A DNA stretch of 64,000 bases from Planctomycetota bacterium (GCA_014584315.1 JACTNA010000028.1:1-64000); one strand, 5' to 3'. Shown: positions 25,843-51,618, counted from the stretch's first letter. Notes: a model not told the origin generated them from the sequence alone. Translations and numbers: made by a program.

Positions 25843-25965
25843 GACTTGAACGCGAAGACCGCGAAGTGCGCGAAGGGGAAGGAGGAGGAACTTCATGGAA
25901 CGGCTTCGCCACTTTGCCACTCCGCCACTCTGCCACTTCGTCACTACGTCACTGCGTCACCTTCT
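25843..25965. repeat. Right composite repeat, inverted relative to the left
   Basis: Reverse complement of 25843-25875 = CTTCGCGCACTTCGCGGTCTTCGCGTTCAAGTC (27/33 identical to the left arm), then GTGACG/GTGGCG-type iterations. Confidence 0.7.
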
Positions 25966-26592: not shown

Positions 26593-26693
26593 GGCCCCCC
26601 CCTTTCGCGTCGTGGCGCGATCGTCGTCCTTCAAACCCGCGGCACGCCTCTCGACGGGCCGCGGGCACGCACGCGGAGTCCCCCTCCCCGCGA

Positions 26694-27872: not shown

Positions 27873-27989
27873 CGCTCCTCCTCCTTCAAGTCCTCCGGAC
27901 ACGGTTCACCCCCGCTCGCACCGCGCCGGACGGTCGCGGACACGCTCCGCGCCGCGGCCGGCGAGCCTCGTTCGTTCGTCGTTCAGCCG

Positions 27990-28493: not shown

Positions 28494-28513
28494 CGTGTCC
28501 TCCTTCCCTTGGC

Positions 28514-33747: not shown

Positions 33748-35322
33748 ATGCTCTCCCAGAACAGCCCGATCCGTTCCGTCCTGGCCGCCGCCGCTCTGGC
33801 CCTCACCGTGAGCGCGGCGTCGGCCCAGGTCTACTCCGCCCCGACGCCGGCCGCGGGGAAGAACCCCGTCCCGGCCCGCCTCGACAACCTCTACCAACTC
33901 GGCGTCTTCACCGACGGCACGGTGTTCTGGAACACCCTGCCGCCCCCGAACGGCGACGACGGCGACGACGGCGGCTCGACACGCGACTGCACCTTCGTGA
34001 GCACGCACACCGACGCGGACTTCAGCGGCGGCACGTTCACGGTGCAGGCGGGCTTCGCGGAGAAGGAGATCCTCGCCGCGTCGTACGTCATCTCGGCATC
34101 GCAGTTCCCCATCCGCATCGACCTGATGGAGTGCATCTTCGCGACGGTGAACGCCGTCGTCCCGACCACGACGCACTGGTCGGTGCTGGTCTGGGACGGC
34201 CCGCCGAACACCGGCATCCTCGTCGCCGAGTACTCGTCGGACGGGCTGATCCTGCCGCACATCGAGCTGCCGCCGGGGACGAACGGCGTGAACGTCGCGG
34301 TCTTCGTGGACCCGAACGACCCCGAGCAGATCATCATCAACAACGACAGCGGGACGAACCGCTTTTCCATCGGCTTCCGCATCGACAAGCACAACGACCA
34401 GACGCAGAACCCCTGCTTCACGCCCCCCCCCTCGAACCGCAACGCTTTCCCGACCACGGACGTCTCGGGCCTGGCGCAGCCCTCGCACAACTGGCTGTGG
34501 GGCGTGAACTGCGGTCCGCTCGGGTGCCCCGCCAACGGCGGGTGGTCCACCTTCGCCGCGCTCCCCACCTACTGCCGCCCCAGCGGCGACTGGGTGCTGC
34601 GCGCGACGTGGACCAGCCTCTCGTGCCAGCCGGGCGTCGGAGCGTGCTGCAAGACCGACGGCTCGTGCGTGCTCGCGACGGCCGCCGACTGCCAGAGCCT
34701 CGGCGGCACGTACAAGGGCGACGGCTCGAACTGCCAGACCGCCGACTGCCCGCAGCCCAACATCCCCTGCTGCTTCGAGTCCACCGGCGGGTGCGTCATG
34801 CTCAAGGAGTCCGACTGCATCGCCGCGGGCGGCATCCCGGGGCCGGCGGGCCAGACCTGCCAGACCTACGTCTGCTTCCCGATCGGCGCGGCGTGCCTGC
34901 CCGACGGCACCTGCATCGACGGCGTCTCGCCCGACGAGGCCGACGCGCTCGGCGCGGTCTTCCAGGGCGACGGCACCACCTGCGCCACCGTCGATTGCCC
35001 CGAGCCGGTCGGGGCGGCGTGCTTCCCGAACGGGTTCTGCCTCGTCCTCACCGAGTCCGACGCCATCAACGCGGGCGCGACGTGGATGGGGCCGGGCACG
35101 ACGTGCGACGACAACAACGGCGACGGCAAGGCGGACGCCTGCGAGCCGCCCGCCTGTGCCGCGGACTTCAACGGGGACACCGTCGTGAACTCGCTGGACT
35201 TCATCGCCTTCCTGAACGCCTACTCGGCGCAGGACTCGAGCGCGGACTTCAACGGGGACACCGTGATCAACTCGCTGGACTTCATCGCCTTCCTGAACGC
35301 CTACGTCGACGGCTGCCCGTGA
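33748..35322 (+). CDS. Secreted dockerin-tailed protein with Cys-rich repeats
   Basis: Signal peptide; tail ADFNGDTVVNSLDFIAFLNAYSAQDSSADFNGDTVINSLDFIAFLNAYVDGCP. Confidence 0.82.
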   Translation: MLSQNSPIRSVLAAAALALTVSAASAQVYSAPTPAAGKNPVPARLDNLYQLGVFTDGTVFWNTLPPPNGDDGDDGGSTRDCTFVSTHTDADFSGGTFTVQAGFAEKEILAASYVISASQFPIRIDLMECIFATVNAVVPTTTHWSVLVWDGPPNTGILVAEYSSDGLILPHIELPPGTNGVNVAVFVDPNDPEQIIINNDSGTNRFSIGFRIDKHNDQTQNPCFTPPPSNRNAFPTTDVSGLAQPSHNWLWGVNCGPLGCPANGGWSTFAALPTYCRPSGDWVLRATWTSLSCQPGVGACCKTDGSCVLATAADCQSLGGTYKGDGSNCQTADCPQPNIPCCFESTGGCVMLKESDCIAAGGIPGPAGQTCQTYVCFPIGAACLPDGTCIDGVSPDEADALGAVFQGDGTTCATVDCPEPVGAACFPNGFCLVLTESDAINAGATWMGPGTTCDDNNGDGKADACEPPACAADFNGDTVVNSLDFIAFLNAYSAQDSSADFNGDTVINSLDFIAFLNAYVDGCP

Positions 35323-35375
35323 TCGCGCGGCGACCGCGCCGCCTGCCGCCCGCGCGGCGTGCCGCGGTTCGCGGG

Positions 35376-36200
35376 TCAATCGCACCCGGCGACGAAGGCG
35401 TTGAGGTACGCCAGCACGTCCAGGGAGTTCACGAGGGTGTCGCCGTTGAAGTCGGCCGACGGGTCGCCGGCGGTGTACGCGTTCAGGAACGCCAGGAAGT
35501 CTAGCGTGTTCACGATCGTGTCGCCGTTGAAGTCGGCCTTGCACTCCGGCGGCGGGACGGGGCCGGAGGCGACGATGGTCGCGGTCCCGTCGAGCGTGGT
35601 CTGCACGCCCTCGACCTCGCCCTCGACGGCGAAGGTCATCGTGCTGGTCAGCACGACCTGATCGCCGATGACCCAGACCGTGCCGGAGAAGGCCGTCTCC
35701 ATCGCGCCGAAGTCCGCGAGGTCGAACTCGCCGGAGCCGATCAGCGGGCCGATGATCGGCCCGCTCCCGACGTAGGCCCCGTCCCCGGTCAGGAGCGCCT
35801 CGACGGCCGGGAAGGTGAACTCGCCCGCGCCGTCGACGCCCACCGGCCCGGTCGGCGTGCCGGGGTTGGCGTAAGACGCCGCCACGTTCGTCAGCGTGAT
35901 CTTCAGCGTGCCGATGAAGGGCCCCCAACTGAAGTCGTACACCATCGCGTTCGTGAGCGCGAAGTGGAAATCGTGCATCACGATCGCGGTCGGCGTGCCG
36001 TAGTCGTCCAGTTCGACGCCGACGCTCCCCGCGATCGGCGAGGACTCCGTGTCGCAGCGCTCGCCGAGGCCGGGGTCGAGACAGATGCGCGCCGTGATCG
36101 ACGACTGCGAGGGGTCCACCTCGAGGTCCGCGATCTGCCCCGACGCCGCCGACGCCGCGCCCAGCACGCCGACCAGCGCGATCGCACGTCCCGTTCTCAT
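35376..36200 (-). CDS. Secreted dockerin-tailed protein
   Basis: Signal peptide MRTGRAIALVGVLGAASAASGQ; tail CKADFNGDTIVNTLDFLAFLNAYTAGDPSADFNGDTLVNSLDVLAYLNAFVAGCD. Confidence 0.82.
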   Translation of the reverse strand: MRTGRAIALVGVLGAASAASGQIADLEVDPSQSSITARICLDPGLGERCDTESSPIAGSVGVELDDYGTPTAIVMHDFHFALTNAMVYDFSWGPFIGTLKITLTNVAASYANPGTPTGPVGVDGAGEFTFPAVEALLTGDGAYVGSGPIIGPLIGSGEFDLADFGAMETAFSGTVWVIGDQVVLTSTMTFAVEGEVEGVQTTLDGTATIVASGPVPPPECKADFNGDTIVNTLDFLAFLNAYTAGDPSADFNGDTLVNSLDVLAYLNAFVAGCD

Positions 36201-36230
36201 GGTTTCGCTCCGTTGGTTCGGCGTCGCGGG

Positions 36231-39032
36231 TCAGCCGCGACACGCCGTCCACAGGTTGAGGAACAGCAGAAAGTCCATCGTATCGACCTTCGTATCGCCG
36301 TTCAGGTCCGCGGACGGGTCCCCCGCGGCGTACCGGTTCAGGTACACGAGGAAGTCCAGCGTGTCCGTCGTGCCGTCCTGGTTCAGGTCCGCTTCGCAGA
36401 AGCACCGCTCGGGACCGACCGACGCGACCCACGTCCGCCACGAGCCGTTGACGTTGTACTCATGGTGCGCCCAGAACGTCCGCCCGTCCACGGGGTCCAC
36501 CTCGACGGCCGAATAGTCGCCCCACCGGCTGGTCTGGTAGGGCGCGTTGGACTCGACCAGCGTGATCGGCGATCCCATCGTTCCCGGCGGGTCGCACGGC
36601 AGGCGGTAGACCAGCCCCATCGAGATGTACTCGGTCGGCGACGACCGCGCGTAGCACACCGCCGCCGAGCCGTCGTCCGCCACCGTGATCGACGAGAAGT
36701 ACGTCCGCACCGTCGGCCCGAGGTCGACGTTGCCGGACTGCACGAGCGTGGGGTTGTTGCCCGAGGTCGGCCACCCGTTCATCGCCACCTCGTACCACCG
36801 CGCCAGCACCCGGTCGCTGTTGATGTGGTGCGTCGCCCAGAGCGACCCGTTCCGGTACGCCACCGACCAGAACCGGGCGTCGAACGCGGTCGGTCGCACG
36901 CTCGTCCCCAGTTGCGGCGGGTTCTCCGGGCGGCCGTAGGTCGGCACGCCGAGCGAGTAGTCCGTCACGACCGGCGTCGTGAGCAGGTTGCGGATGGCGA
37001 TCAGACGTACCGAGGTGTTGCTGGTCTGCTCGCGGTGCTCGATCAGGTACAGCGCGGGCGGGTTGTCATAACTCACCGGTGGGATGCCGGCGGACTGCGT
37101 GCTCGTCGTCAGCGTGAACGACTTGGTGATCGCCGGCGGGCTGCCCGCGAGCATCGATGCCTTGTCGAAGATGTAGACCGGGTAGTTCGAGCCAAGCCCG
37201 AACCCGTCGCCCGTAACGACGACCGCGTCGTCCGTCACGCCGATGTTGGGCGAGTCGAAGAGGTTCCCCGCCAGCCCGGTCGTTTCGAGTCGGTACTTGT
37301 ACCACGTGCCGTTCGGGTTGCTGTCGTCCGAGACCGCGATCAGCACGTAGGAGCGGTTGCCGGGCGCGTACGCCTCGGCCGCCATGGCGAAGAAGCGCCC
37401 CGTCAACTCGTCGTAGAGCACCTCGGGGTCGAAGACGAATCCCGTCGCCCCGACCGAGCCCCAGAACCCGAACGAGTCCTCGATCTCGTCCTGGAAGGTC
37501 TTGGTGCCGTCCTTCTGGAAGAACGCGATCGCGCCGTTGGTCATCACGACGACGTGGCCCGGACCGACGGCCATGTGGGGGTCTGGCGGCGTCCAGCCCG
37601 TGCTCGTGATCGCCGTGAATCCCACGCCGCGCGGCGTGAACTCGAACTCGCGCTCGGCGTGCTCGATGTCGCGCGGGTCGAAGGTCGGGGGCTCGTGCGG
37701 CCCCGGCCCCTGCGCGAGCACGATCCGCCCGTCCTCGTCGCGGTCCGGCAGCGCGGGCTTCATCGCCTCGGTCACGCCGCGCTCGCCCGCAGGCTCGGGC
37801 AGCGACTCCGCCAGCATCGTGACGTGCGCCGCGGACGAGTCGCCCAGCCCGCCGTCGCCCGACCACGCGCAGAGCATCGTGCCATCGGGCGCGAACGCGA
37901 GGCGCGCCGTCGCGGCCGCGGTGCGCATCGTCTGCGGGCCTTCGCTGCGCTCGGTGACGCGGAACTCTCCCGACCGCGCCGCGAGCGACGCCGAGAACAA
38001 CCGTCCGAACACGCCCGGCTCGCCGTCGGTCAGCCCGTTGAAGGCCACCGCGATCGTGCCGTCGGGCGCGACGGCGACCGCCGCGCCGGTCTGCGGCCCG
38101 GGCGTCGCGCCGCTCACGACGACCGGCGCGGCGTCGGTCGGGACGGCGCGCGCATCCAGCAGTCGCGCCAGCACGCCGTAGTCGTCGCCGTCGCTCTCGG
38201 CGTCGAGCCACGCGACGACGTAGCCGTCGTCCGTTGCGGCCAGCGCGGGTTCGATCTGCGACGCGGCGGGCGCCGCGGTGACGGCGCTCGGCGTGCCCAG
38301 CGCGATGCCCTCGGGGTCGAACGCCCGCACGCGCACGCCCGCGGGCAGCATCGGCGGCCCCTCGAACGCCGTCCACGCGATGGCGAACGAGCCGTCCTCG
38401 CGCACCGCGACGGCGGGCGTCGTCTGCGCGCCGTCGTCGCTCCTGGCCACGATGAACTCCGGCCCGAGCGGCGCGCCATCCGCGCCCAGCAGGCGCGCGG
38501 TCACGCGCCGCGGCGCGCCCGGCTCGACGCTCTCCCACGCGACGATCGCCGAGCCGTCCGGGCGCGCGGCGATGACGGGCGAGGCCTGCTCGCCGCGCCA
38601 CGTCTCGTTGACAAGGATCTCCTCGCCGCCCACGAAACCCGGGCCGAACCGGCGCGCGATGATCGAGCCGGCGTGCCCGTCCTGTCCGTGCGACTGCCAG
38701 ACGACCCATGCGCCACCGTCGCGCGTGGCGGCGGCGTCCGGCGCGAACTGGTGCGAGCGCGTCCAGAGGTTGATCTGCGTCTCCTCGCCGATCGCCACGC
38801 CCGCGCCGTCGAACCGCTGCCCGTACACGCCGTAGGACCCGACCTGCTGTCGGCGGCTCGTCCACACGACCAGCGAGCCGCCGCCTTCCATCACGGCCAG
38901 GGCGGCGTCGGTCTGCGCGCTCGAGGTGTAGGTGCTCGCACGCCACTCGGCCCGCGACAGGGGACGGTCATCGGCGACCGGGTGGGGACAGGCCAGGACG
39001 GCGCAGGTCGAGGCGATCAGGGCGGCGTGCAT
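36231..39032 (-). CDS. Large secreted dockerin-tailed repeat (propeller-like) protein
   Basis: Repeated VAVREDGSFAIAW / AARPDGSAIVAWES motifs; tail CEADLNQDGTTDTLDFLVYLNRYAAGDPSADLNGDTKVDTMDFLLFLNLWTACRG. Confidence 0.8.
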   Translation of the reverse strand: MHAALIASTCAVLACPHPVADDRPLSRAEWRASTYTSSAQTDAALAVMEGGGSLVVWTSRRQQVGSYGVYGQRFDGAGVAIGEETQINLWTRSHQFAPDAAATRDGGAWVVWQSHGQDGHAGSIIARRFGPGFVGGEEILVNETWRGEQASPVIAARPDGSAIVAWESVEPGAPRRVTARLLGADGAPLGPEFIVARSDDGAQTTPAVAVREDGSFAIAWTAFEGPPMLPAGVRVRAFDPEGIALGTPSAVTAAPAASQIEPALAATDDGYVVAWLDAESDGDDYGVLARLLDARAVPTDAAPVVVSGATPGPQTGAAVAVAPDGTIAVAFNGLTDGEPGVFGRLFSASLAARSGEFRVTERSEGPQTMRTAAATARLAFAPDGTMLCAWSGDGGLGDSSAAHVTMLAESLPEPAGERGVTEAMKPALPDRDEDGRIVLAQGPGPHEPPTFDPRDIEHAEREFEFTPRGVGFTAITSTGWTPPDPHMAVGPGHVVVMTNGAIAFFQKDGTKTFQDEIEDSFGFWGSVGATGFVFDPEVLYDELTGRFFAMAAEAYAPGNRSYVLIAVSDDSNPNGTWYKYRLETTGLAGNLFDSPNIGVTDDAVVVTGDGFGLGSNYPVYIFDKASMLAGSPPAITKSFTLTTSTQSAGIPPVSYDNPPALYLIEHREQTSNTSVRLIAIRNLLTTPVVTDYSLGVPTYGRPENPPQLGTSVRPTAFDARFWSVAYRNGSLWATHHINSDRVLARWYEVAMNGWPTSGNNPTLVQSGNVDLGPTVRTYFSSITVADDGSAAVCYARSSPTEYISMGLVYRLPCDPPGTMGSPITLVESNAPYQTSRWGDYSAVEVDPVDGRTFWAHHEYNVNGSWRTWVASVGPERCFCEADLNQDGTTDTLDFLVYLNRYAAGDPSADLNGDTKVDTMDFLLFLNLWTACRG

Positions 39033-39196
39033 CACGGTTCGACTCCTCCCCCGTGTTCGAGACGGCGCGGGGCCGCCGGCGGCAGTCCGGCGGGCCGACA
39101 CCAACCTACGGCCTCACGCCCCTCGATGCAACGGTTTTCGCGCCGACTCGACCCTTCGCGTGCGTCGACAGGCGGGGAGTTCCCCCCCTGCGCGGG

Positions 39197-41377
39197 TCAG
39201 GGGCACCCGGCGGCGTAGGCGTTGAGGTAGGCGAGGAAGTCGATGGTGGAGATCAGGCCGTCGTCGTTGAGGTCGGCCCGCGGGTTCTGGGCCGACCAGT
39301 CCGCGAGGAAGGCGATGAAGTCGATGCTGTTGACCGCGCCGTCACGGGACCAGTCGGCCACGCAGTCCGCGTGGCGCCAGCGCGAGGCGGGGATCGGCTG
39401 TCGCGGCAGGCCCGGCCCCTCCGCGCGCACGATCAGCCCCGCGCTCCCCGAGTTCTCGAAGAACTCGACGCGCAGGCGGTGCAGGCCCGCCTCGAGCGCG
39501 GCGGGCGCGGAGCGTTCCTGCATGCCGTGCTGCCCGTCGTTGTTCACGAGCAGCGAATCGCCCAGGTACAGCATCGACCCGTCGTCGGACTCGACCGACA
39601 GCACGTACAGACCGGTCTCGGGCGCCTTGAAGTACCCGTCGAAAACCGCGCCGACGAAGTTGGACCGCCCGCTGGTGGCGAACTGCCCGCCCGAGGAGGG
39701 GTAGTCCACGTTCGGCACGATGTCGAACTTGTACGGGGTCAACGCCGAGTAGTCGGGCATCGAGCTGCTGGGCGGGATCACGTAGTACGCGACCGAGACG
39801 CCGGGCGCGGTCACGCCGGGCTGGTCCGCGGGCCGAGGCTCGATCACGTCCACGAACACCTCGCCCAGGTCGTACCCAGCGCCCTCGCGGTACAGGTAGT
39901 ACTCGAAGCGGTCCGCCCCGGTGTAGCCCTGCGGCGGGACGTAGAGCGCCTCGTCGCGCCCGCCCTCGCCCGTCCCCTGCGAGATCGACACCGACCCGCC
40001 CTGATCCGAGATGCCCTGCACCGTCGAGAGCACGATCCCGTCGCAGTTCAGCGCGGCATCGTTCTTCAGCACGTCGATCCGCGTCGAAGCGTCGCGCATC
40101 ACGGACGCCGCGTCGTCCACCGCGAACAGGCGGTTCGTCAGGTTGCACGGCGCCTGGAACTGCAGGTAGAACAGGATCCGGTCGATGACGAGCGGCCCGA
40201 AGCGCAGCACGATGTTCGTCATCCCGCCCGGGCAGGTGTGGCAGTACGACATGATCGTCCCGCCCCAGGCATCCGAGCAGTCCCCAAGCCCGCACTTGTC
40301 GATGGGCGGCTCGTACCCGTCGTGGGTGTGGAGGGTGCCGAAGTTGTGCCCGAGTTCGTGCGCGACGACCATCAGGTCCCAGTTCCCGCTGTGATGGTCC
40401 TGGAGCGGGTAGGGGAACCACCCGCCGACGCCGGAGACCGCGTACCCCCAGTCCTTCGAGCACATCACGCTCACGTACGCGACGCCGCCGCCGAAGTTGC
40501 CCGAGAACAGGTGCGCCAGGTCGCGCTGCACGCTCCCCTTCGTCGCGCGCCAGTGGCTGAGCAACTCGCCGAGGCGGTCGCTCCCGCCGTAGGGGTCGTC
40601 GTCCTGCGCGAAGACTCGCAGGTACGGCACGACGAGGCGGACGTTGAGTTCGTAGGTGTAGATCTCGCTGACCGCGGCCATCAGCGTGAGGGCGTAGGCC
40701 GCCGAGGCGTCCGCGTTGCCGCCGAACAACCACGCCGTGTACTCGTAGTCGGAGTCGATCGCCACCCGCGCCACGCGGCACGGACCGTTGCGCGCGCCCT
40801 CGCCGCCCTCGCCGGCCTCCGCCATCGCCAGACCGAGCGGGTCGTGCGTCGCGGCGTCCACGTGGCACATCCAGTCCGGCTGCATGTGGTCCGGCAGGTC
40901 GGCGACGTCGTAGACGACGTGCGGGCCTTCGACGCCCGTCGGCGGCGGGACCAGCGCGAAGCGCTTCCCCTCGGTCTCGATCAGGGCGTGGCTACCCCAC
41001 GGAGAGAGGCTCAAGAACACCCGCGAATCGGCGTCGCCCTCGACCGTCCCGCGCAGCGTGACGACCTCGGGGCGGGGCATGGGCACCTCGCCCTGGGCCG
41101 TCACGACCAGCACCTCCGCGTCCGGCGCGAGCACGTCGAACGCCTCGAGCCGGAGGTCCACCGACCCGCCGGGGATGGGGAAGCCGGTCAGCGTCACGTC
41201 GCTCGCGCGGAAGCGGTCGAGGTCGCCTGAGTCGATCGTCACCGCCACGAACGGCTCGAACCCCGCGCCGGCCTCTCCACGCACGGGCGCGACGGGCGAG
41301 ACGCGGACATCCTGCGCGACCAGCGCGGACGCGAACGAGGCGAGCACGGCGACGACGGTCAGGCAGGTGCAGCGCAC
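39197..41377 (-). CDS. Secreted reprolysin-like zinc metallopeptidase with PA14-like domain and dockerin tail
   Basis: HELGHNFGTLHTH active site; PA14-like TSGRSNFVGAVFDGYFKAPETGLYVLSVESDDGSMLYLGDSLLVNNDG; tail ending AGCP. Confidence 0.85.
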   Translation of the reverse strand: MRCTCLTVVAVLASFASALVAQDVRVSPVAPVRGEAGAGFEPFVAVTIDSGDLDRFRASDVTLTGFPIPGGSVDLRLEAFDVLAPDAEVLVVTAQGEVPMPRPEVVTLRGTVEGDADSRVFLSLSPWGSHALIETEGKRFALVPPPTGVEGPHVVYDVADLPDHMQPDWMCHVDAATHDPLGLAMAEAGEGGEGARNGPCRVARVAIDSDYEYTAWLFGGNADASAAYALTLMAAVSEIYTYELNVRLVVPYLRVFAQDDDPYGGSDRLGELLSHWRATKGSVQRDLAHLFSGNFGGGVAYVSVMCSKDWGYAVSGVGGWFPYPLQDHHSGNWDLMVVAHELGHNFGTLHTHDGYEPPIDKCGLGDCSDAWGGTIMSYCHTCPGGMTNIVLRFGPLVIDRILFYLQFQAPCNLTNRLFAVDDAASVMRDASTRIDVLKNDAALNCDGIVLSTVQGISDQGGSVSISQGTGEGGRDEALYVPPQGYTGADRFEYYLYREGAGYDLGEVFVDVIEPRPADQPGVTAPGVSVAYYVIPPSSSMPDYSALTPYKFDIVPNVDYPSSGGQFATSGRSNFVGAVFDGYFKAPETGLYVLSVESDDGSMLYLGDSLLVNNDGQHGMQERSAPAALEAGLHRLRVEFFENSGSAGLIVRAEGPGLPRQPIPASRWRHADCVADWSRDGAVNSIDFIAFLADWSAQNPRADLNDDGLISTIDFLAYLNAYAAGCP

Positions 41378-41416
41378 GGCGCTTCTCCGGGTAGAGGGGG
41401 GACTGGGTTCCGAATC

Positions 41417-41444
41417 AGCGGCCCACGGTCTCCCGTGGGCCGCT
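41417..41444 (-). terminator. 12-bp perfect hairpin with GAGA tetraloop (minus strand)
   Basis: AGCGGCCCACGG-GAGA-CCGTGGGCCGCT downstream of the S8 protease gene; no T tract. Confidence 0.45.
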
Positions 41445-41495
41445 CGTGGTCGCGTGTCGAGGGCGTGGCGCGGCCTCGCGCCCGCCCGCGCGGGC

Positions 41496-44400
41496 TTAGT
41501 CGCACCCGGCCGTGTAGGCGTTCAGGAACGCGAGCACGTCGAGGGTGTTGAGCACGGTGTCGCCGTTGAAGTCCGCGCTCGGGTCGCCCGAGTTGTAGGC
41601 GTTGAGGAAGGCGAGGACGTCGAGGGTGTTGACGACCGTGTCGCCGTTGAAGTCCGCGGGGCAGGACTCGTCCTCGCATTCGAACCCGAACAACTCGAAG
41701 TCGTCGACGAGCGCCTCGACCAGCGAGTCAGGCGCGAGGTCCTCGGCGATGAATCGCAGGCTGATCGTCCCGTTGGGCGTGGCCAGCCCGCGCGAGGAGA
41801 CCATCTGCTGGTACCACCCGCCGTCCGCGATCGGGCCGCCCGGTCCGACGACCTCGGCGGTGTTCCACGCCGCGCCGTCGCTGGACATCTGCACCGTGAA
41901 GGCGTCCTGGTTGGGGCTGTTCCCGCGTGAGTTCGTGTACCACCGCCAGTACTTCACCAGCGCGTAGGGGTACCCCGCGATGTTGAAACTCGGGCTTTGC
42001 AGCGTCGTGCGCCCGCCGTCGACGTCGCGCGAGTTCGCGTTCGCGCCCGCCTGCCCGTCGGTGACCCAGCAGGCCACGCCGCCGTCGGTGTGGTCCTCGC
42101 CGGGCTGGACGACGAACCCGTTGTTGACGGTCTGCTGCGGCGTCATGCGGTTCCAGAGGCCGGCGGTCGCGGTGTCGCCCGGCGCGCCGCTCGTCCAGCC
42201 GGAGTTGAACTCGAAGAAGTCCGTGAGCAGGGCGACGACGGACCCGACGATGGACTGCTGGGGCGCGTACCCGCCCAGGTCAGGCTCCGACACGAGTCCG
42301 GACTCGACGCTCTCGGCCGTCGCGTAGTACTCGGCGACCATCCCGCAGGGGAATCCGGGCAGCGTGGCCCGGTAGACGTCGCCGCCCTGATGCACGAGCG
42401 GCACGCTGGTGAACGAGCCGACCGCCCCCGCGCGGTAGTAGAGCGTGGGGCTGTCGACGATCAGGGTGTCGGTCCCCGGTGCGACCATCACGTCGAGGTC
42501 GAAGGGGGTGAGCGGCGTGAGCGACGCCGGTGCGTTGAGGAAGGCGACCTGCAGCGGCAGTTCCTGGGCCACCTGGCCGGTCACGACCAGCGCGTAGCCC
42601 TGCTTGCCCTGCTGCACGCCCGCGCCGATGACGCGCGCCGTCCAGACGCCGGACTGCGGCGAGTTCAGGTGGACCTGCTCGACGTTGTTGCGGTCGTCCT
42701 TGCTGCCTCCGGGCACGCTGACGCCGCCGCTGAACACGTTGCCCTTGTAGACCGTCCCGCCCGGCGAGAGGACTTCGAGGTCGAGGTCGTTGATCGCCGC
42801 GAACGAGGCGCCGGCGCTCGCCGCCACGTCCGTCCAGACGAGCGTGACGCGGAGTTGCTCGGCCGCGCCGGTGATGTTGAACTGCACCTGCTCGCTCTGC
42901 CCGGTGTTGAGGCCGACGGCGTTGCGCACGTCGCGGACGAGCATGGTGCGCACGTCGCCGGGGAAGTAGAGCGCGACGTCCGCGAGCAGACGCCCCCAGC
43001 CCTCCTGATTGCTCGGGTAGCCGGAGACGCCCGTCATGTCCACCGCGCCGTTGATCAGCGTCGCCTTCACGAGCGCGCCGCTGGGTGTGATCTGGTCCGA
43101 GGGCTTGGGCGAACCGGAGGGGTAGTACCCGTCGGCGTAGTACTGGCGCACCAGCGCGCCCATGCCCGCGATCGCGGGGCTGGCCATCGAGGTCCCGGTC
43201 GCCGTCGTCGTGCTGCACGACGAGGAGTTGAGGCTCGAGTTCGTGCTGCACCCCGGCGCGTAGATCTCGGGCTTGCGCCGCCCGTCGCTGGTGGGGCCGG
43301 TCCCGCCGGTGCAGTGCTGGCCCTGGTTGGGCGTGTCGCGCGACGCGCCGACCGCCAGCAGGTTCTTGGCGTTCTCGGGGTTCTTGAGCGTGTTCGTGTT
43401 CGTCACCGCCAGGTAGACCTGGCTGTCCTCGTAGGTGTGCTGGAAGCGGTCGAACCCGCGGCAGAGGCCGTCGTACTGCGTGGTCCCGTCGTTGCCCCAA
43501 CTGTTGGTGTGGTCGCGCCCGGTCTGGTTGTGGTGCGTTTCCAGGCGCAAGAAGATCGCCGTCTCGCTGAACGACGGGATGGTGTTGTAGACGATCTTCG
43601 CCAGGTACGCCATGCCGCGCGTGTCGTTGTTGGTCCCGTTGTCGCCCGCGGCGGTCCCGGCCACGTGGGTCCCGTGGAACTGCGACCCGAGCGACGTGTT
43701 GTAGGCGAGGATCTTCCGGTGGTTCGGGCCGATCGGGTTCACGGAGTCCAGGAAGGAGCAGTGGTTCACGTTGATCTTGTCGTCGATGACCCCGACCACC
43801 TGCCCCGCGCCCGTCAGCCCGTTGGTGTACAACTTGAGGTCGTTGGTGATGTTGGTCTGGAGGATCCAGCGCGTCGTGTTGTTGCGCAGCGTGATCTCGG
43901 GGAAGTCCTCGACGAACTGGACGCCGGCGACCTTCGCGATCGCACCGGCCGCCATCGTCGGCGCCTCGACGTGCAGCGAGGCGTGCGTGCCGATCCAGTC
44001 CACCGACGCGACCCTCACGCCGGGGATCGCCGCCACGGCCTGCACCGTCGCGTGCAACTCGGCGTCGAGGAACAACTCCACCAGGAACTGCGACATCCCC
44101 TGCCCCGCCAGCGCTTGGCGCTCCAGCGTCGTGAACCGCCGCTGCCCGATCTCGGGCGCGAGTTTCCACGCGTCGTCGAACGCCGACCACCAGCGCACGA
44201 ACCCGAGCGCTCCCAGCGCGCCCGCGTCCGCGCCCTCCAGCCGCACGATCCACGAGTTCATCGGCAGGTAGTCGCCCAGCCACACGCCCGCGGCGTGCAG
44301 CGCGTCTCGGCGCGCCGGCGTCATCGGGCCGTCCAACTGGATCACCCACCGCCCCGGCTGCCCGGCCAGCGCGGCGACGCCCGGGCGGCCGGCCGTCGTG

Positions 44401-44576
44401 TCGATCGTCCCCGTCCGGAGGTACAGCGCGGTCGGGCTGACGGGGGCCAGCCCCGCCAACGCCGGATCGACGACCACGTCGTCCGACGACGACCACGCCT
44501 GCCCCGCACTCGCCGCCAGCGCCACGCACAGCCACGCCGCCGACAGGCGACCCGAACCTGACTTCCTGCTGCCCAT
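41496..44576 (-). CDS. Secreted subtilisin-like (S8) serine protease, dockerin tail
   Basis: GVIDDKINVNHCSF (Asp), HGTHVAGTAAGDNG (His), GTSMASPAIAG (Ser); tail ending TAGCD. Confidence 0.9.
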   Translation of the reverse strand: MGSRKSGSGRLSAAWLCVALAASAGQAWSSSDDVVVDPALAGLAPVSPTALYLRTGTIDTTAGRPGVAALAGQPGRWVIQLDGPMTPARRDALHAAGVWLGDYLPMNSWIVRLEGADAGALGALGFVRWWSAFDDAWKLAPEIGQRRFTTLERQALAGQGMSQFLVELFLDAELHATVQAVAAIPGVRVASVDWIGTHASLHVEAPTMAAGAIAKVAGVQFVEDFPEITLRNNTTRWILQTNITNDLKLYTNGLTGAGQVVGVIDDKINVNHCSFLDSVNPIGPNHRKILAYNTSLGSQFHGTHVAGTAAGDNGTNNDTRGMAYLAKIVYNTIPSFSETAIFLRLETHHNQTGRDHTNSWGNDGTTQYDGLCRGFDRFQHTYEDSQVYLAVTNTNTLKNPENAKNLLAVGASRDTPNQGQHCTGGTGPTSDGRRKPEIYAPGCSTNSSLNSSSCSTTTATGTSMASPAIAGMGALVRQYYADGYYPSGSPKPSDQITPSGALVKATLINGAVDMTGVSGYPSNQEGWGRLLADVALYFPGDVRTMLVRDVRNAVGLNTGQSEQVQFNITGAAEQLRVTLVWTDVAASAGASFAAINDLDLEVLSPGGTVYKGNVFSGGVSVPGGSKDDRNNVEQVHLNSPQSGVWTARVIGAGVQQGKQGYALVVTGQVAQELPLQVAFLNAPASLTPLTPFDLDVMVAPGTDTLIVDSPTLYYRAGAVGSFTSVPLVHQGGDVYRATLPGFPCGMVAEYYATAESVESGLVSEPDLGGYAPQQSIVGSVVALLTDFFEFNSGWTSGAPGDTATAGLWNRMTPQQTVNNGFVVQPGEDHTDGGVACWVTDGQAGANANSRDVDGGRTTLQSPSFNIAGYPYALVKYWRWYTNSRGNSPNQDAFTVQMSSDGAAWNTAEVVGPGGPIADGGWYQQMVSSRGLATPNGTISLRFIAEDLAPDSLVEALVDDFELFGFECEDESCPADFNGDTVVNTLDVLAFLNAYNSGDPSADFNGDTVLNTLDVLAFLNAYTAGCD

Positions 44577-44919
44577 GTCTTTCGATCCTCCAGAACGCCC
44601 CTCACGCCGAGGCGGGGGCTGGTGTGTGCCTGTCAATCGGCCCGACGATCCTCGGGCTGGATGCCCCGCCCGGGCCTGTCCCGGCGGCGTTGCGTCCCGC
44701 GGCGTCCCACGCCGCACCGTCCGTCATGTCCCCGGTTCTCGGCCCCTCCTCGGCCTGATCGCACGCCGACAATGAACGCCCGCGCGACGCGCGGCCGCGA
44801 TCTCCCATACGAGCCTCGGGCGCGACCGGACGAACCATTCTCTCGCGCCCGTTCCGCCTTTGGTAGCAGAAACCTGCGGTACAGATCAATCCGAATCCGC
44901 CAACCGGAGCCAGATAAAG

Positions 44920-44948
44920 AACAACCCCGCGGTCTCCCGCGGGGTGTT
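44920..44948 (-). terminator. Terminator-like hairpin with GAGA tetraloop (minus strand)
   Basis: AACACCCCGCGG-GAGA-CCGCGGGGTTGTT then CTTTATCT, downstream of the metallopeptidase gene. Confidence 0.55.
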
Positions 44949-44977
44949 CGAGTGTTGTCAGGGTCGGGCGTTGCGAA

Positions 44978-47734
44978 TCAATCGCAGCCCGCGTTGTAGG
45001 CGTTGAGGAAGGCGAGCACGTCGAGCGAGTTGATGACGGTGTCGCCGTTGAAGTCGGCCTTCGGGTCGTTGGCGTTGTAGGCGTTGAGGAAGGCGAGCAC
45101 GTCGAGCGAGTTCAGCACCGTGTCGCCGTTGAAGTCGGCGGGGCAGTCGTCGCACACGCCCATGCTGACCGTGAACTCGTCGATGGCGGCCTCGACGATC
45201 GAGCCGGGCTCGAGGTCCTCGGCGATGAACCGCACGCGCACGTTGGCCGTCGGGGCGACGAAGTCCTCCACGTTGAACTCGTGGTAGAACCACCCGCCCG
45301 AGGTGCCCGGCCCGGACGGCCCGACCGTCTCGACGTTCACCCAGCCCGAGCCGTTGTTGATGTCGACGCGGAAGGTGTCCGTGTTCGGGGCCGCGCCCTG
45401 GTCGTTGGAGTACCAGCGCCAGTAGGAGATCGTGATCCCGCTCTGGCCCACGAGGTTGAGAGTGGGCGTGATGACGGTCGTCTTCCCGCCGTCCACGTCG
45501 TACTGCCCGATGCTGGTTCCGGCGCGCCCGTCGGTGACGTAGCAGATGGTGCCGGGGTCGGAGACGTCGTCCTCCGGTTGCGCCGGCGTGCCCTGCGGGT
45601 CCATGCGACCCCAGATGCCGGTGGTGGCGTTGTCGCCGGCGTCGCCGACCGTCCAGCCCTTGTTCGTCTCCATGTCGTCGTGGAAGGCGACCACGACGTC
45701 GTCGTACGCGGACGCGCTGTAGGCGTCGGCCGGGGCGTTGGTCGGGTTGGTGTGGAACCCGCCCTGCGTGTCCTGCACCTGGATGAACCAGTCGATGCGG
45801 GACTCGCAGGAGATGCCCGGGAGGGTGGCGATGTACTGCCCGCCGCCCAGGTCCGTCAGGCCCGAGTCCTGGTACGACCCGCCGTCGACGGAGTAGTAGA
45901 GCCGCTCGGTGCCGGGCTGCGGGGTCTTCAGCCCGGCCTCGATATCCACGCGGACGCCGTAGGACTGCCCGGGGGGCAGGATGGAGGGACGCCCATCCGG
46001 GTACTTGAAGACGATGGGGGGAAGGTCGGGGCAGGAGATGCTGTGGGCCGCGAACGCCGCGCAGATGAGCGTCCAGTTCGGGGTCCCGTTGGTGATGTCC
46101 CCGTCGTCGTCGTCAACGGTCAGCCACTGGATGGCCGTCGCCGGGTGGGCGGAGTTGTCCCCGCTGCCGCCGGTGGTGATGAGCGACCAGTCGACGTGCA
46201 ACTGCTGGACCATGGCCAGGCCGGCGGCGGAGCCGTAGGTGTTGCCGAAGTTCTCACGGATGCGCCAGACGACGCCACCGATCAACTGCCCGCAATGGTG
46301 GACGCCGCCCGAGCAGGGGTACTGGACGTTTGCCAGGACCGGGTAGCGCACGTATCCGCCGTTGGTGAAGAAGTTCCGCCCGATGATCGGATCGTCGTAC
46401 TGGATCATGGAGCAGGTGTCCGCGTAGCCCTCGCCGAACGCGCCCTGCGACAGCCCGAGCCGGGCGACGATGTAGTGCCCGTACTCGTGCGCCACCACCG
46501 AGGAGTACGCCGTGTTGTTGCACCCGCCCGCGGCCCGGTAGAAGTTGATCGACGAGCCGTCGAAGTAGGCGTTGCAGCTCGAGTTGATGTTCACGTTCGC
46601 CGGGCACTTGAAGTCCATGCCCGTCCACGTCGTGCGGTAGCGGATGTAGTCGTGCGTCCTGGCGGTGTGGATCGCCGCGTTGACCTGCGCCGTCGTGAAC
46701 TGCGACGGGCTGGAGTTGTACTCGAGCGTCCCCGGGACGCCGGGGGTGAACGTGCCGCTGATGGAGAGCACGCCCGTGCCCGACTGGTCGTTCACGTCGA
46801 CCCACAGCCCGTTGTCCAGGTTGCTCGTGACCGTGACGGGGTTCACCCCGCCGTGCGTGATCACGAAGTCGCCGTTGTCCTGCGAGTACGAGTTGTTCCC
46901 GCCCTGCACGACCACCCGCATGTCCGGCATCGCCATCACCACGGGCGGGTTGGACCCCATGTCAGGGTCCGTGCCGGGGGTGGCCCTCGCGTTGAGCGTC
47001 CCGATCACGTCGATGTTCAGCACCTCGTTGCGCACGTACAACAGCGCTCCCGTGTTCGCATCGACGAAGAAGGTGTACCGCTCGCGGGCCTCGAGACTCG
47101 GCTCCTCGCCCACGAACTTCCACGCCAGCACCGGGTCGCGGCGCGTGTCATCGCCCTGGAAGATCACCATCTCCGCGTCCGACCAGACGGGCAGGTGCTC
47201 GAAGTTGATCATGTCGCGCACCGAGCCGACCGCCTGGTTCCCTTGCACGAACGGCAGCCCGAACCCGCCCTCGGGACGCTGGGCGAACTTGCCGGCCGCG
47301 TACACCACGCGGTCCTGCTCGCCCGCGAACCCGTTGAGCACCATCAGGCGACCGATCCCGTGCTCCACCGGCAGGCCGTCGATGTACTGCTGGTACCCGA
47401 AGACCGTGAACTTGCCCATCCCGGTCTCGCCCACCCAGACCTGCTCCAGGTCCAGGTCGCCCGCGCCGAACGCGGTCCCGTGGTCCGCCCACCACTTGGC
47501 GGCGGCCTCGTCGGGCGTTTCGGCCGCCGTCATCGGCTTGCCGTAGATCAGGTTGACCCGGCCCTCATCCACCCAGGCCTGCACGCCGGGGAACTGGCGG
47601 CTGAGGTCCAGGAATCCGGGAGGCGTGATCGGGAGGGTCTCGATCCCCCCCATCTTCCCGCTGGACATGGCCGAGGCCGAGCCGGCAAGGCCGACCAGCG
47701 CGGCGATCGCGATCCGACGAATCGATGTGGACAT
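44978..47734 (-). CDS. Secreted zinc metallopeptidase (M36/M4-like) with propeptide and dockerin tail
   Basis: FTP-like VFGYQQYIDGLPVEHGIGRLMV; VAHEYGHYIVARLG...FGEGYAD; tail ending NAGCD. Confidence 0.82.
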   Translation of the reverse strand: MSTSIRRIAIAALVGLAGSASAMSSGKMGGIETLPITPPGFLDLSRQFPGVQAWVDEGRVNLIYGKPMTAAETPDEAAAKWWADHGTAFGAGDLDLEQVWVGETGMGKFTVFGYQQYIDGLPVEHGIGRLMVLNGFAGEQDRVVYAAGKFAQRPEGGFGLPFVQGNQAVGSVRDMINFEHLPVWSDAEMVIFQGDDTRRDPVLAWKFVGEEPSLEARERYTFFVDANTGALLYVRNEVLNIDVIGTLNARATPGTDPDMGSNPPVVMAMPDMRVVVQGGNNSYSQDNGDFVITHGGVNPVTVTSNLDNGLWVDVNDQSGTGVLSISGTFTPGVPGTLEYNSSPSQFTTAQVNAAIHTARTHDYIRYRTTWTGMDFKCPANVNINSSCNAYFDGSSINFYRAAGGCNNTAYSSVVAHEYGHYIVARLGLSQGAFGEGYADTCSMIQYDDPIIGRNFFTNGGYVRYPVLANVQYPCSGGVHHCGQLIGGVVWRIRENFGNTYGSAAGLAMVQQLHVDWSLITTGGSGDNSAHPATAIQWLTVDDDDGDITNGTPNWTLICAAFAAHSISCPDLPPIVFKYPDGRPSILPPGQSYGVRVDIEAGLKTPQPGTERLYYSVDGGSYQDSGLTDLGGGQYIATLPGISCESRIDWFIQVQDTQGGFHTNPTNAPADAYSASAYDDVVVAFHDDMETNKGWTVGDAGDNATTGIWGRMDPQGTPAQPEDDVSDPGTICYVTDGRAGTSIGQYDVDGGKTTVITPTLNLVGQSGITISYWRWYSNDQGAAPNTDTFRVDINNGSGWVNVETVGPSGPGTSGGWFYHEFNVEDFVAPTANVRVRFIAEDLEPGSIVEAAIDEFTVSMGVCDDCPADFNGDTVLNSLDVLAFLNAYNANDPKADFNGDTVINSLDVLAFLNAYNAGCD

Positions 47735-48000
47735 GTGGGTTCCTCCGCCCGCTCGAGGCTGAAAACGCGAAAAGCCCCGCCCGACGCTCGGGACAAGGCA
47801 ACCGACGGGGAGGCCCGCTCCAACAGCCCGACAGCGGACACGGAATCCCCCTCAGACCACGGGGCCATTCGGCGACCCGAGGCCGTCGGTTCCTGCCCAG
47901 CCTACATCGTCCGCCTCTGTGGCGGAATACCCATCCTCAATTCGAGCAGAAACCCTGCCCGTGCGGGATGGAAGGCCTGGGGGCCGGAAACCTCGATCCT

Positions 48001-49275
48001 CTACGGGCACCCGGCGGTGTACGCGTTCAGGAAGCAGAGCACGTCCAGCGTGTTGATCGCCGTGTCCCCGTTGCAGTCCGCCCCAGGATCGCCCGCCGTG
48101 TACAGGTTCAGGAAGCAGAGCACGTCCAGCGTGTTCACCACCGTGTCCCCGTTGCAGTCGGCGTAGCACGACGGCAGGCCGCGCCAGACCGCCATCCCTC
48201 CCTCGGCCCGCACGGCCCCCGTGTCATAGATCGGCGCGGTCGGCGTGAACGACCCGTTCGCATGGACTTTGAAGACGTACAGCCCGGCGATCCCGTCCGT
48301 CGCGGACGAGTCGTCCGTCACGAAGAGCAGGTCGTCCATGGACGCCATGTTCCCGATCGTCCCCTGCAGCCCGACGTCGAACATGAACCCCGTCGAGGTG
48401 AGCGAGCCGTCCGGGTTGATCGCGAACGAGCGAACCGTCGCGTCCGTCCCGTGGCCCATGAACAGGAAGGCGCCGTCGTCCGTGATCGCGGGGTAGGCGG
48501 GCGATGCGCCCGGCGAGGTGTAGGGCGACCCCGGCAGCGGCATGAGCACGCCCTCCGCCACGTCGTACCCCAGGATCTTCTTCCCGTCCCCGCTGATGCC
48601 ACCGCCCGCGTACAACTTCGTCCCGTCCCGGCTGATCCGGATGTTGAGCGGGTAGTTCGGCGTGCCGACCGTGAGGTCGTTCGTGAGCGTCCAGTCCGGG
48701 TTGATCGCCCAGCGTCGGATGTTCAGGCTCGTCGAGTCCTGCGAGTACAACTTCCCGTCCACCGGGTGCAGCGCCAGCGCGGTGTTGAACGATCCCGACG
48801 CCTGCGACGAGAGTTTCGTGAGCGTGAGCGCGTCGCGGTCGAAACGCCAGACGTGGATCTGCGACGCCCCGAACTCCGAGCGCGTGATGGCGATCACGTC
48901 GTTGCTCAGCCATTCCGCCGCCAGCGGAGAGTTGTCGATCCAGAACGACGCCAGCATCGTCAGCGAGGCGTCCGGCGCGACCGCAAAGACGTGGAACCGG
49001 TCCATGGTCGAGCTGCCGTCCTGCGAGCCTGCGGCCTCCGCCGCCGCCAGCAGCGATCCGTCCGGGTTGATCGCCACCGTGGACGTCCACATCTCGGTCG
49101 GGTAGTTCCCGACCATGGTCAGCGAGTCGTCCGCGTTGACCCGGAACGAGGTCACGCTCGCCGTCGTCGTGTGGTAGTGCCCCACGAAGACGGCCCGCGA
49201 CTCCGACTGCCCCATCGCCCCGAACGCCATCGACACCGCCGCCGCCGCGGCCGCCACACGCACACGCACACGCAT
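48001..49275 (-). CDS. Secreted lactonase-type beta-propeller protein with Cys-variant dockerin tail
   Basis: Propeller repeats (SFAINPDGSLTS, ALHPVDGKLYSQDS); tail CYADCNGDTVVNTLDVLCFLNLYTAGDPGADCNGDTAINTLDVLCFLNAYTAGCP. Confidence 0.8.
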   Translation of the reverse strand: MRVRVRVAAAAAAVSMAFGAMGQSESRAVFVGHYHTTTASVTSFRVNADDSLTMVGNYPTEMWTSTVAINPDGSLLAAAEAAGSQDGSSTMDRFHVFAVAPDASLTMLASFWIDNSPLAAEWLSNDVIAITRSEFGASQIHVWRFDRDALTLTKLSSQASGSFNTALALHPVDGKLYSQDSTSLNIRRWAINPDWTLTNDLTVGTPNYPLNIRISRDGTKLYAGGGISGDGKKILGYDVAEGVLMPLPGSPYTSPGASPAYPAITDDGAFLFMGHGTDATVRSFAINPDGSLTSTGFMFDVGLQGTIGNMASMDDLLFVTDDSSATDGIAGLYVFKVHANGSFTPTAPIYDTGAVRAEGGMAVWRGLPSCYADCNGDTVVNTLDVLCFLNLYTAGDPGADCNGDTAINTLDVLCFLNAYTAGCP

Positions 49276-49380
49276 ACCCGGCCTCCTGTTCGCTCCGTGC
49301 GGACTCAATCTACCCCGCACGCGCCGGCCGACCAAGGGGAATCGCTCCCCTCGCTCCCGAACCGGCGTTCACCCGGGGCC

Positions 49381-51618
49381 TCAGCCGCACCCCACCGCCC
49401 ACCAGTTCAGGAACGCCAGGAAATCCAGCGACGTAACCGCCCCGTCCCCATCCAGGTCCGCGCTGGGCTCGCCGGACACGAAGGCGTTGAGGTAGGCGAG
49501 TACGTCCACCGTGTCCGTGCCGCCGTCCGTGTTGAAATCGCCCGGCTCGAAGATCGGCACGCTCCACGCCCCCCGGCCCTGCGTTCCTGCCACCAGCCGC
49601 CCGCGCGGACGGTCGAGCACCAGGTCGATCACCGCCACGTTCGGCATCCCGAGCGCGTACCGCTGCCACGACACGCCGCCGTTCATCGATCGGTACACGC
49701 CCGCGTCGGTCCCGGCGTAGAGCGGGCGCAGCAGGCACGAGGAGTCCACGACGACCACGTTCACCGGCAGGTCTGGCAGGTCGCCGTCGAGCGCCTCCCA
49801 CGTCGCCCCCGCGTCGCGTGAACGGCGCACCTTCGGCCCGCCGAAGTGCGCCGTCGCCAGATAGACCTCGCGCGGGTCGTCCGCCGCGACGGTCAGTTCC
49901 CGCGTCACGCGCGGCCAGCCGGGGTGGCCGGTCAGCACCGCCTCGAAGTTCGCGCCGCCGTCCTGCGACGCGAGCACGCGCCCGTCGTTCGTCGAGGCGT
50001 AGACGAAGGACGAGTCCGACGGCGCGATGGCCAGCGCACGGATCGCCCCCTGCCCGTCGGTGAGGTCGCCGCTGAGCACGCTCCAACCCGACCCGCCGTT
50101 CGTGCTCAGGTGGATGCGGTGGGTTGCGTAGAGCATCCGGTCGGCGTCGGCGGGGTCGATGATGTAGGGCGGCAGGAAGCAGTTGCGCCCGCTGATCCCG
50201 CCGCCGACGTGCGAGAACGAGTTTCCCCCGTTCGTCGAGCGGAAGAGGTTCCCCGTGCCCTGGTACTCGGCGAAGACGCGGTGCGGGCGCGTCGCGTCGA
50301 GTTGCGTCCATCCGCCGTCGCCGCCGAGAACGGTCGCCCAGGCGACCCCGTCGTCGCTTCGCCGATTCGTGCCGTTGTCCTGCGTCCCGCCCATGACCCA
50401 CCGTTCGTCGGTCGGGTGGAGCGAGAGGCCCGCGTAGAACTGCACGGTGGAGAGGCCGTCGTTGAGGTTGACGTAGGAGTCGCCGAGATCGTCGCTCCGA
50501 TGCACGCCGCCGTCGTCGCCGACCACCAGCCGGCCCGCCGCGTCGAACTCGATGGCGTGGATGTCGACGTGGGGCGGGGTCACGTTCGCGCCGACGCCGT
50601 TGACGTATCGGCGCATGTTCAGCCCGCCGTAGAAGACGACGTTCGCGTCGTCGGGCTTCACCCCGACGACCGACAGGTACCAGCCGTAGGTCGCCTGGTT
50701 GACCGACCCGTGCGCCGTCCAGGTCGCGCCGCCGTTGTCGGACCGGAAGCCGCCGATGTTCTCCGCGCCGCCTCCCGCGGCGTCCGCCGGCTTGGTGAGG
50801 AGCGCGAAGACCCGCGAGGGCTGGCTCGGCGCGACCGCAAGACTGACCCGCCCGATCGGTCCCGGCAGACCCCCCCCTCCGCCCAGTTTCGCCCAACTGG
50901 CCCCGGCGTCGGTCGTTTTGTAGACACCGTTGCCCGCGTCGCCGAAGATGTGCCCGATCGCGGCGTAGAGCGTGGCCGGGTTCGCCGGGTCCAGCGCCAG
51001 GTCGGTCGCGTCCACCGCGGGCAGCCCGTTGGTCAGGTGCGTCCACGTCGCCCCGCCGTCCGCCGACTTGAACACGCCCACCGGCCCCGTCGCGCCCGGG
51101 TGCCCCTTCGCGGCGACCAGCGTCGGGAACCCGCCCGCCCGGGCGACCGAGGCGTACAGCGTCTGCGTGTTCGTCGGGTCGATTCGGATGCGCGAGAAGC
51201 ACCGCCCGGCGAAGGTCTCCGCCGCGAGCACCGTCCACGTCTCGCCGCCGTCCGTGGACTTGTAGAGGCCCAGCCCGTAGCGCGAGTGGTTGGCGAAGTT
51301 CGCCTCGCCGCTCCCGGCGTAGACCACCTGCTCGTCGTGCGGGTCGAGCGCGATTGCGCCGATCGACGTGGTCGGGAGATGGTCTGTCAACGGCGTCCAG
51401 GTCAGCCCGCCGTCGCGGGTTCGCCACACGCCCCCGTCCGCCGCGCCGACGTAGTAGAGGTCCGGGTCCACGCGGCTGCACGCCACTGCGCTGATGCGCC
51501 CCGCCGAGCCTCCCGAGACGCTCGCCGGCGCGGGGCCGAGGGACTCCCACGACTGCCCCCACGCCGGGCCCGTGACCGCCGCCAGCGCCACCATCGCACG
51601 CACGATCATGGTCCTCAT
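49381..51618 (-). CDS. Secreted BNR/sialidase-like propeller protein, dockerin tail
   Basis: Repeats GGVWRTRDGGLTWTPL, LGLYKSTDGGETWTVL, GVFKSADGGATWTHL; tail GDFNTDGGTDTVDVLAYLNAFVSGEPSADLDGDGAVTSLDFLAFLNWWAVGCG. Confidence 0.85.
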   Translation of the reverse strand: MRTMIVRAMVALAAVTGPAWGQSWESLGPAPASVSGGSAGRISAVACSRVDPDLYYVGAADGGVWRTRDGGLTWTPLTDHLPTTSIGAIALDPHDEQVVYAGSGEANFANHSRYGLGLYKSTDGGETWTVLAAETFAGRCFSRIRIDPTNTQTLYASVARAGGFPTLVAAKGHPGATGPVGVFKSADGGATWTHLTNGLPAVDATDLALDPANPATLYAAIGHIFGDAGNGVYKTTDAGASWAKLGGGGGLPGPIGRVSLAVAPSQPSRVFALLTKPADAAGGGAENIGGFRSDNGGATWTAHGSVNQATYGWYLSVVGVKPDDANVVFYGGLNMRRYVNGVGANVTPPHVDIHAIEFDAAGRLVVGDDGGVHRSDDLGDSYVNLNDGLSTVQFYAGLSLHPTDERWVMGGTQDNGTNRRSDDGVAWATVLGGDGGWTQLDATRPHRVFAEYQGTGNLFRSTNGGNSFSHVGGGISGRNCFLPPYIIDPADADRMLYATHRIHLSTNGGSGWSVLSGDLTDGQGAIRALAIAPSDSSFVYASTNDGRVLASQDGGANFEAVLTGHPGWPRVTRELTVAADDPREVYLATAHFGGPKVRRSRDAGATWEALDGDLPDLPVNVVVVDSSCLLRPLYAGTDAGVYRSMNGGVSWQRYALGMPNVAVIDLVLDRPRGRLVAGTQGRGAWSVPIFEPGDFNTDGGTDTVDVLAYLNAFVSGEPSADLDGDGAVTSLDFLAFLNWWAVGCG

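Follow-up and report, generated by a model that had tools for sequence, protein, structure and literature searches.

A GC-type dockerin tail with paired cysteines and lineage-specific contact residues, a candidate recognition tag on about 100 exported proteins of a planctomycete

Eight genes at positions 33748-51618 of a 64,000-nucleotide stretch of Planctomycetota DNA (GCA_014584315.1 JACTNA010000028.1:1-64000; hereafter, the window) encode exported proteins that share a twin EF-hand, dockerin-like C-terminal tail. The window is bases 1-64000 of contig 12 in the 3.33-Mb, 36-contig genome of a Phycisphaerales-like planctomycete (G000). We lean toward the view that this tail is a dockerin-type recognition tag on about 100 exported proteins, with one partner shared by all of them in each genome and with dialects of contact residues that have coevolved with that partner. 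The domain family itself is known; what is added here is the co-occurrence of its cysteines and the existence of lineage-private dialects, which, together with the count of about 100 tails, also go beyond the original prediction made for this stretch.

In the mechanism that we propose, a C-terminal calcium-binding domain of the dockerin fold would be closed by a disulfide between a cysteine ahead of the first EF-hand and the C-terminal cysteine. About 100 exported proteins, many of them proteases, carry this tag. A single partner, outside the cell or on its surface and common to all of them, would recognize the tag by its two near-identical helices and so keep the tagged proteins cell-bound or assembled in one complex. 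Coevolution of tail and partner would have given each genus-level lineage its own dialect of contact residues. The single partner, the retention at the surface, and a role as anchor or scaffold are what we infer from the findings below.

The tail and its carriers

The original prediction pointed to a GC-type dockerin family of NCBIfam, and this family is NF041540, a 67-position model. All eight tails score above its curated cutoff of 29 bits (41.3 to 54.5 bits), with the match at the C-terminus, and a six-frame motif scan places the paired EF-hand units directly before the stop codon in every gene. PF00404 is the weaker model, matching seven of the eight tails at an E value of ≤0.01 and one above its own cutoff. 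Gly-Cys stands at, or one residue before, the C-terminus in seven tails, and that of gene 36231 ends in ACRG. Signal-peptide-like N-termini are present in all eight proteins (for 41496, only with the start moved to 44576), so that the predicted group of eight exported, tail-bearing proteins stands in full. At the family level there is no difference from NF041540: the likeness lies in above-cutoff scores, paired EF units, and the terminal GC of seven tails, and what was known is a name and a profile. The partner, clasp, and dialects of GC-type dockerins, and the term itself, were not found in the literature searched.

The genome-wide count that the original prediction had proposed gave 105 NF041540 matches at an E value of ≤0.1, of which 100 exceed the cutoff, versus one sub-cutoff match and none above it in 14 control genomes; chance is thereby excluded for a 3.33-Mb genome. 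A signal-peptide-like start was detected in 78 of the 91 complete proteins with a C-terminal tail versus 6 of 56 interior controls, and several of the remaining 13 show one by eye. No clearly cytosolic carrier was seen in the window's genome, in keeping with a prediction that had no place for such carriers. A Pfam scan covering 27 of the roughly 100 tail proteins returned four reprolysins, two subtilases, FG-GAP and BNR propellers, and many proteins without a family, and M14 carboxypeptidases were recognized among the carriers from their sequences. The closest tails occur in the metagenome-assembled genomes (MAGs) Phycisphaeraceae TGS_PLA3, Phycisphaerales SJ83, and Planctomycetota PNC22.

Predicted fold and calcium ligands

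AlphaFold2, run on a 52-row alignment, models the tail with two helices at a predicted local distance difference test score of 94, and the model has the dockerin fold. Among its Foldseek matches in the PDB, the four best are all dockerins (2y3n, 2vn5, 4dh2, and 2ozn; template modeling scores of 0.56 to 0.60, probabilities of 0.54 to 0.89); the E values of about 1 to 3, which for such a short domain are not significant alone, count against the assignment. A sequence-profile search matched dockerin chains at a significant 4e-7. The tail contains two calcium loops with Asp or Asn at positions 1, 3, 5, 9, and 12, and D8, D19, D35, and D46 are invariant in an alignment of the tails (A2). From these ligand residues, the tail is predicted to bind calcium. 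Fold and residue pattern together suggest that the tail serves protein-protein recognition and not cleavage.

Paired cysteines

The tail is laid out as a cysteine, about 52 residues that include two 27-residue units, a second cysteine, and then zero or one residue (81 of 85 tails conform to this last feature). Among the G000 tails, both cysteines are present in 80, neither in 11, the terminal one only in 5, and the first one only in none (Fisher P = 5e-11). A second pair lies within the repeats, one cysteine directly following the calcium loop's first Asp and the other taking the place of the Ala in the next helix; it occurs in 13 of 144 G000 repeats, never as a single cysteine (P = 1e-18), and in other genomes the two residues appear together in six of six cases among 252 repeats. 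One G000 protein has this pair in repeat 1 only, and therefore the pair acts per repeat. Because related sequences are not independent, these P values describe association and not independent events, and a figure of 120 of 126 for related tails is biased upward by a retrieval profile that contained both cysteines.

The simplest reading of the co-occurrence is probably a disulfide clasp from the first cysteine to the terminal one, and two kinds of disulfide, clasp and intra-repeat, would be the natural reading of the two pairs, as judged from the sequences. The first clasp cysteine is missing and the C-terminal one kept in five M14 orthologs (C15:4253 [L094], L145, L147, L188, and L190).

Further variants accompany these patterns. 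The open frame of L188 has only one cysteine besides its C-terminal cysteine. The tails of another genome, G311 (L277-L286 and L339-L348), carry two additional cysteines, one within helix 1 and the other within the linker, which gives a third layout of possible disulfides. Also, a dockerin-like EF pair without clasp cysteines lies inside a large RHS-repeat protein of the window's genome (L060:1140-7904 on contig C5; PF05593 confirmed), and inserts similar to it by flank sequence similarity only lie at C5:14920, C4:41774, C14:17913, C2:34173, C30:4521, and C30:161.

Dialects of contact residues

We compared five genomes of related genera (G000, G296, G311, G322, and G113), sampling tail units by Pfam rank and checking lower ranks in two of the genomes. 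One dialect prevails in each genome, in the two repeats as well as across unrelated proteins: DFNGDTVVN[TS]LD[VF]LAFLNAY in G000, DFNxDGFVNALDYDxFAExFE in G296, DFNxDGNVDQDDIACLAQVVA in G311, DFDGDGFVDFFDFDAFVAxFE in G322, and DxNGDGVVDFADLSxVLxNFG in G113. The nearest repeat unit came from the same genome for 228 of 230 units, and 39 of 40 lower-ranked units were nearest to the consensus of their own genome. Calcium ligands 1, 5, and 12 are invariant across the dialects.

In clostridial dockerins, positions 10, 11, 17, and 18 are specificity determinants, and the calcium positions are defined there as well (PMC5748583). With both position sets taken from that work, identity at the specificity positions is 0.68 within genomes and 0.10 between them, compared with 0.98 and 0.80 at the calcium positions and 0.64 and 0.29 at the remaining positions. 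Divergence at positions 7 and 13 is equal in strength to that at the specificity positions, and so the change of dialect is not confined to the determinants. M14 carboxypeptidase orthologs illustrate the pattern, as their tail helices differ sharply among genomes: all 10 scored units, from five genomes, agree with their genome's own dialect (the M14 tail L302 being itself part of the G322 set), as do, by eye, the M14 tails in G251, G289, and G302. Because several species of the G000 clade have the G000 dialect in common, the dialect is a property of clades and not of strains.

Cysteine co-occurrence and lineage-private dialects argue for one reader per lineage. A broader statement is possible but more doubtful, namely, that in this Phycisphaerales family each genome equips tens to hundreds of its exported proteins with dockerin tags, which are read by a noncohesin receptor under a lineage-private code, unlinked tails having switched contact residues together while keeping the fold, the calcium ligands, and often the cysteine clasp.

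Selection and copying

If tails had been copied recently, their synonymous sites would agree. We therefore scored synonymous difference relative to random-codon expectation in pairs of units at least 80% identical in amino acids, obtaining 0.88 in G000 (where whole tails were examined too), 1.01 in G296, 0.82 in G311, 0.95 in G322, and 0.72 in G113 (15 pairs). Since synonymous sites are near saturation, selection at the protein level explains most of the uniformity. Recent copying as its cause is unsupported in G296 and G322 and only partly rejected in G000, G311, and G113. In all five genomes, synonymous sites agree better between the repeat pair of a single protein (0.71 to 0.91) than between units of different proteins (0.87 to 1.03), and hence there has been some intragenic homogenization; copying makes some contribution to the uniformity, most clearly between repeats of a single protein. 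A shared partner would be expected to select in just this way for like contact residues in unlinked genes.

Weighing the evidence

Several further points weigh against the tag-and-partner reading. Several tails keep the terminal cysteine while lacking the first, no tail counted shows the opposite, and a plain clasp does not predict this asymmetry. Neither VKOR nor a PF01323 DsbA, as an oxidant for the proposed disulfides, was found in G000. No PF00963 cohesin was detected in G000 at an E value of ≤1, nor any by a profile (A1) built from 19 related cohesins, which a very divergent cohesin could still escape; 14 dockerin-rich genomes yielded two sub-significant matches to this profile (E values of 0.09 and 0.2). 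In about 300 kb flanking dockerin clusters, examined as 20 stretches, there was no obvious receptor, the exported neighbors being DUF2961, subtilase, M14, M60, collagen-like/S74 chaperone, and beta-lactamase-fold proteins and unknowns. Finally, synonymous sites are not fully saturated in G000, G311, and G113, and older gene conversion could also produce uniformity. Whatever it may be, the partner is no cohesin that Pfam or the related-cohesin profile would recognize, in agreement with the absence of cohesins noted in the original prediction.

The strongest rival, although we regard it as unlikely, is that the tails belong to a planctosome-type cohesin-dockerin system, whose true cohesin scaffold would have diverged too far for Pfam and the profile. 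A planctosome has been proposed for the Nemodlikiaceae, freshwater Phycisphaerae with cohesin/dockerin proteins that include M12B reprolysin and M14 carboxypeptidase (PMC6461901), and both enzyme classes carry the tail here too. Moreover, proteins with cohesin, HYR-like, and dockerin-like modules occur in another family of the same order (G243 and G209), and a few genomes of the window's family encode matrixin-like metalloproteases in which dockerin-like modules are combined with cohesin-like ones (L116 in G096, L123 in G262, and L124 in G248). However, PF00963, present in 39 of 248 genomes of the class, has one weak match among 15 genomes of this family, 14 of which contain the GC dockerin. 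Profile A1 has matches in 5 of 31 family genomes, mostly in matrixin fusions or a likely contaminant, with none in G000, and nearly all dockerin_GC-rich genomes within the family lack a detectable cohesin. A three-cohesin protein (L122 in G255) was set aside as a likely contaminant, given its TPTPTP linkers and a MAG with 4% contamination. The present system also differs from the published one in that no cohesin adaptor or anchor was found in G000 and in its roughly 100 carriers.

Less probable still is that the tail is a calcium- and disulfide-stabilized C-terminal cap for folding or stability after export, made uniform by the spread and conversion of a 3' cassette. Such a cap would suit the strictly C-terminal position, the greater synonymous likeness of repeats within one protein, and the failure to find a receptor. 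Between proteins, however, near-identical tails are 0.82 to 1.01 saturated in four genomes (G113 being the lower, 15-pair case), and a mere cap needs no uniform surface residues, such as those found at the contact positions within each genome.

Covalent C-terminal processing, in which the EF-hands would present a terminal Gly-Cys sorting signal for lipidation or for a mixed disulfide to a carrier, is very improbable. The near-constant distance of the last cysteine from the end and the retention of that cysteine in tails without the first one, the five M14 orthologs included, are what it would predict. Nevertheless, the terminal cysteine is coordinated with the first, cysteine-less tails of the same domain end at the same place, L137 has an internal C..C tail, and neither a transmembrane or basic segment nor a dedicated enzyme was found. 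Exosortase occurs in almost the whole class, the window's genome included, and so its distribution is not linked to that of the tail, nor does it take the tail's place; as a complementary system it was ruled uninformative. Thus, of the proposal that the tail behaves like a shared sorting or anchoring tag, the shared tag gains from the genome-wide counts, the uniform contact residues, and the near-saturated synonymous divergence among near-identical tails, whereas sorting or anchoring finds no corresponding transmembrane or basic anatomy, no processing enzyme, and no help from exosortase. Small exported proteins with PEP-CTERM-like ends (L316:16912-17538, L319:3995-4654, and L323:1146-1823) constitute a second C-terminal tag in G000.

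Homotypic assembly, in which tails bind each other and no receptor gene is needed, might account for the missing cohesin, the genome-wide uniform dialects, and the hydrophobic helix faces (LDVLAFLNAY), but it is scarcely credible; tail-tail pairing alone is not the basis of any solved dockerin known to us.

Relation to known systems

With type I cellulosomal dockerins (PF00404; 2y3n, 2vn5, and 1ohz), the tails have in common two calcium loops with ligands at positions 1, 3, 5, 9, and 12, the predicted fold, near two-fold symmetry, and clade-specific residues at positions 10, 11, 17, and 18. They differ in a shorter linker, in the lack of a detectable cohesin, and in scanned bodies that are proteases and propellers and not cellulases. 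The possible cysteine clasp contrasts with the aromatic/proline clasp of the ScaA dockerin (PMC5934362). A cellulosome, with scaffoldin and dockerin-bearing cellulases, does not describe this genome, in which no cohesin was detected and the 27 scanned carriers are proteases, propellers, FG-GAP proteins, and unknowns. The PEP-CTERM/exosortase system likewise places a C-terminal tag on many exported proteins, and G000 encodes exosortase; the tail here, however, is a folded EF-hand domain without a short motif, transmembrane helix, or basic C-terminus.

The eight-protein cluster and its surroundings

Pfam confirms the reprolysin, subtilisin, lactonase-like, and BNR labels originally given to the cluster proteins, while the M36-like label finds only sub-threshold metallopeptidase matches (Table 1). 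The motif [A]DFNGDT-VN-LDxLAFLNAY describes most tails, with 36231, 39197, and 49381 carrying more degenerate copies. An exported DUF4198 protein without a tail lies directly upstream of the Sortilin/BNR protein; as an exported neighbor it was considered as a receptor, and there is no reason to assign it that role.

Table 1. Features of the window (SP, signal peptide; tail scores are for NF041540)
Feature	Coordinates	Strand	Evidence and remarks
Exported protein 1	33748..35322	+	SP MLSQNSPIRSVLAAAALALTVSAASAQ; no Pfam body family over cutoff; originally labeled propeller-like
Protein 1 tail	35155-35316	+	47.9 bits; form C..DGCP*
Exported protein 2 (274 aa)	35376..36200	-	SP MRTGRAIALVGVLGAASAASGQ; no Pfam body family over cutoff
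Protein 2 tail	35382-35543	-	53.7 bits
Exported protein 3 (933 aa)	36231..39032	-	No Pfam body family over cutoff
Protein 3 tail, degenerate	36243-36398	-	49.9 bits; end CRG*
M12B reprolysin-like metalloprotease with PA14	39197..41377	-	PF13688, E 2e-22; PF07691, E 4e-17
Reprolysin protein tail	39203-39364	-	54.5 bits
Subtilase (S8)	41496..44576	-	PF00082, E 3e-30; start reassigned to ATG at 44576, MGSRKSGSGRLSAAWLCVALAASAGQAWS
Subtilase tail	41502-41663	-	54.1 bits
Putative metalloprotease	44978..47734	-	SP MSTSIRRIAIAALVGLAGSASA; sub-threshold HExxH-type metallopeptidase matches, E 0.09-0.11
Putative metalloprotease tail	44984-45145	-	53.2 bits
Lactonase-type propeller	48001..49275	-	PF10282, E 6e-10
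Lactonase-type propeller tail, Cys-rich variant	48007-48168	-	41.3 bits; ADCNGDT..LCFLN in both repeats
Sortilin/BNR propeller protein	49381..51609	-	PF15902, E 7e-21
Sortilin/BNR tail	49387-49539	-	48.2 bits; first clasp Cys missing, terminal Cys kept (GCG*)
Exported DUF4198 protein	51615-52475		No tail
Prophage remnant or gene-transfer-agent-like cluster	25957-29989		Phage-type genes
SU10 major capsid protein	26694-27872		
SPP1-like portal	28514-29989		Separated from the capsid gene by a weak scaffold match
AAA_16 ATPase	54410-55582		Codon fit to genome poor; possibly acquired

Elsewhere in the genome, contig C26 encodes an exported GH56 hyaluronidase-family protein (L310:8375-9670; PF01630, E 2e-34). 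To our knowledge, such a protein is unusual in bacteria.

Implications

Genomes with dockerins but no cohesins are a recurrent puzzle, and the one described here has about 100 such dockerins. The differences in dialect between genomes suggest which residues are read, and thereby offer a test for the partner, which would be expected to bind tails of its own lineage but no foreign ones. Such tails might find use as orthogonal, calcium-dependent protein tags, and the partner would show how a planctomycete organizes its exported proteases.

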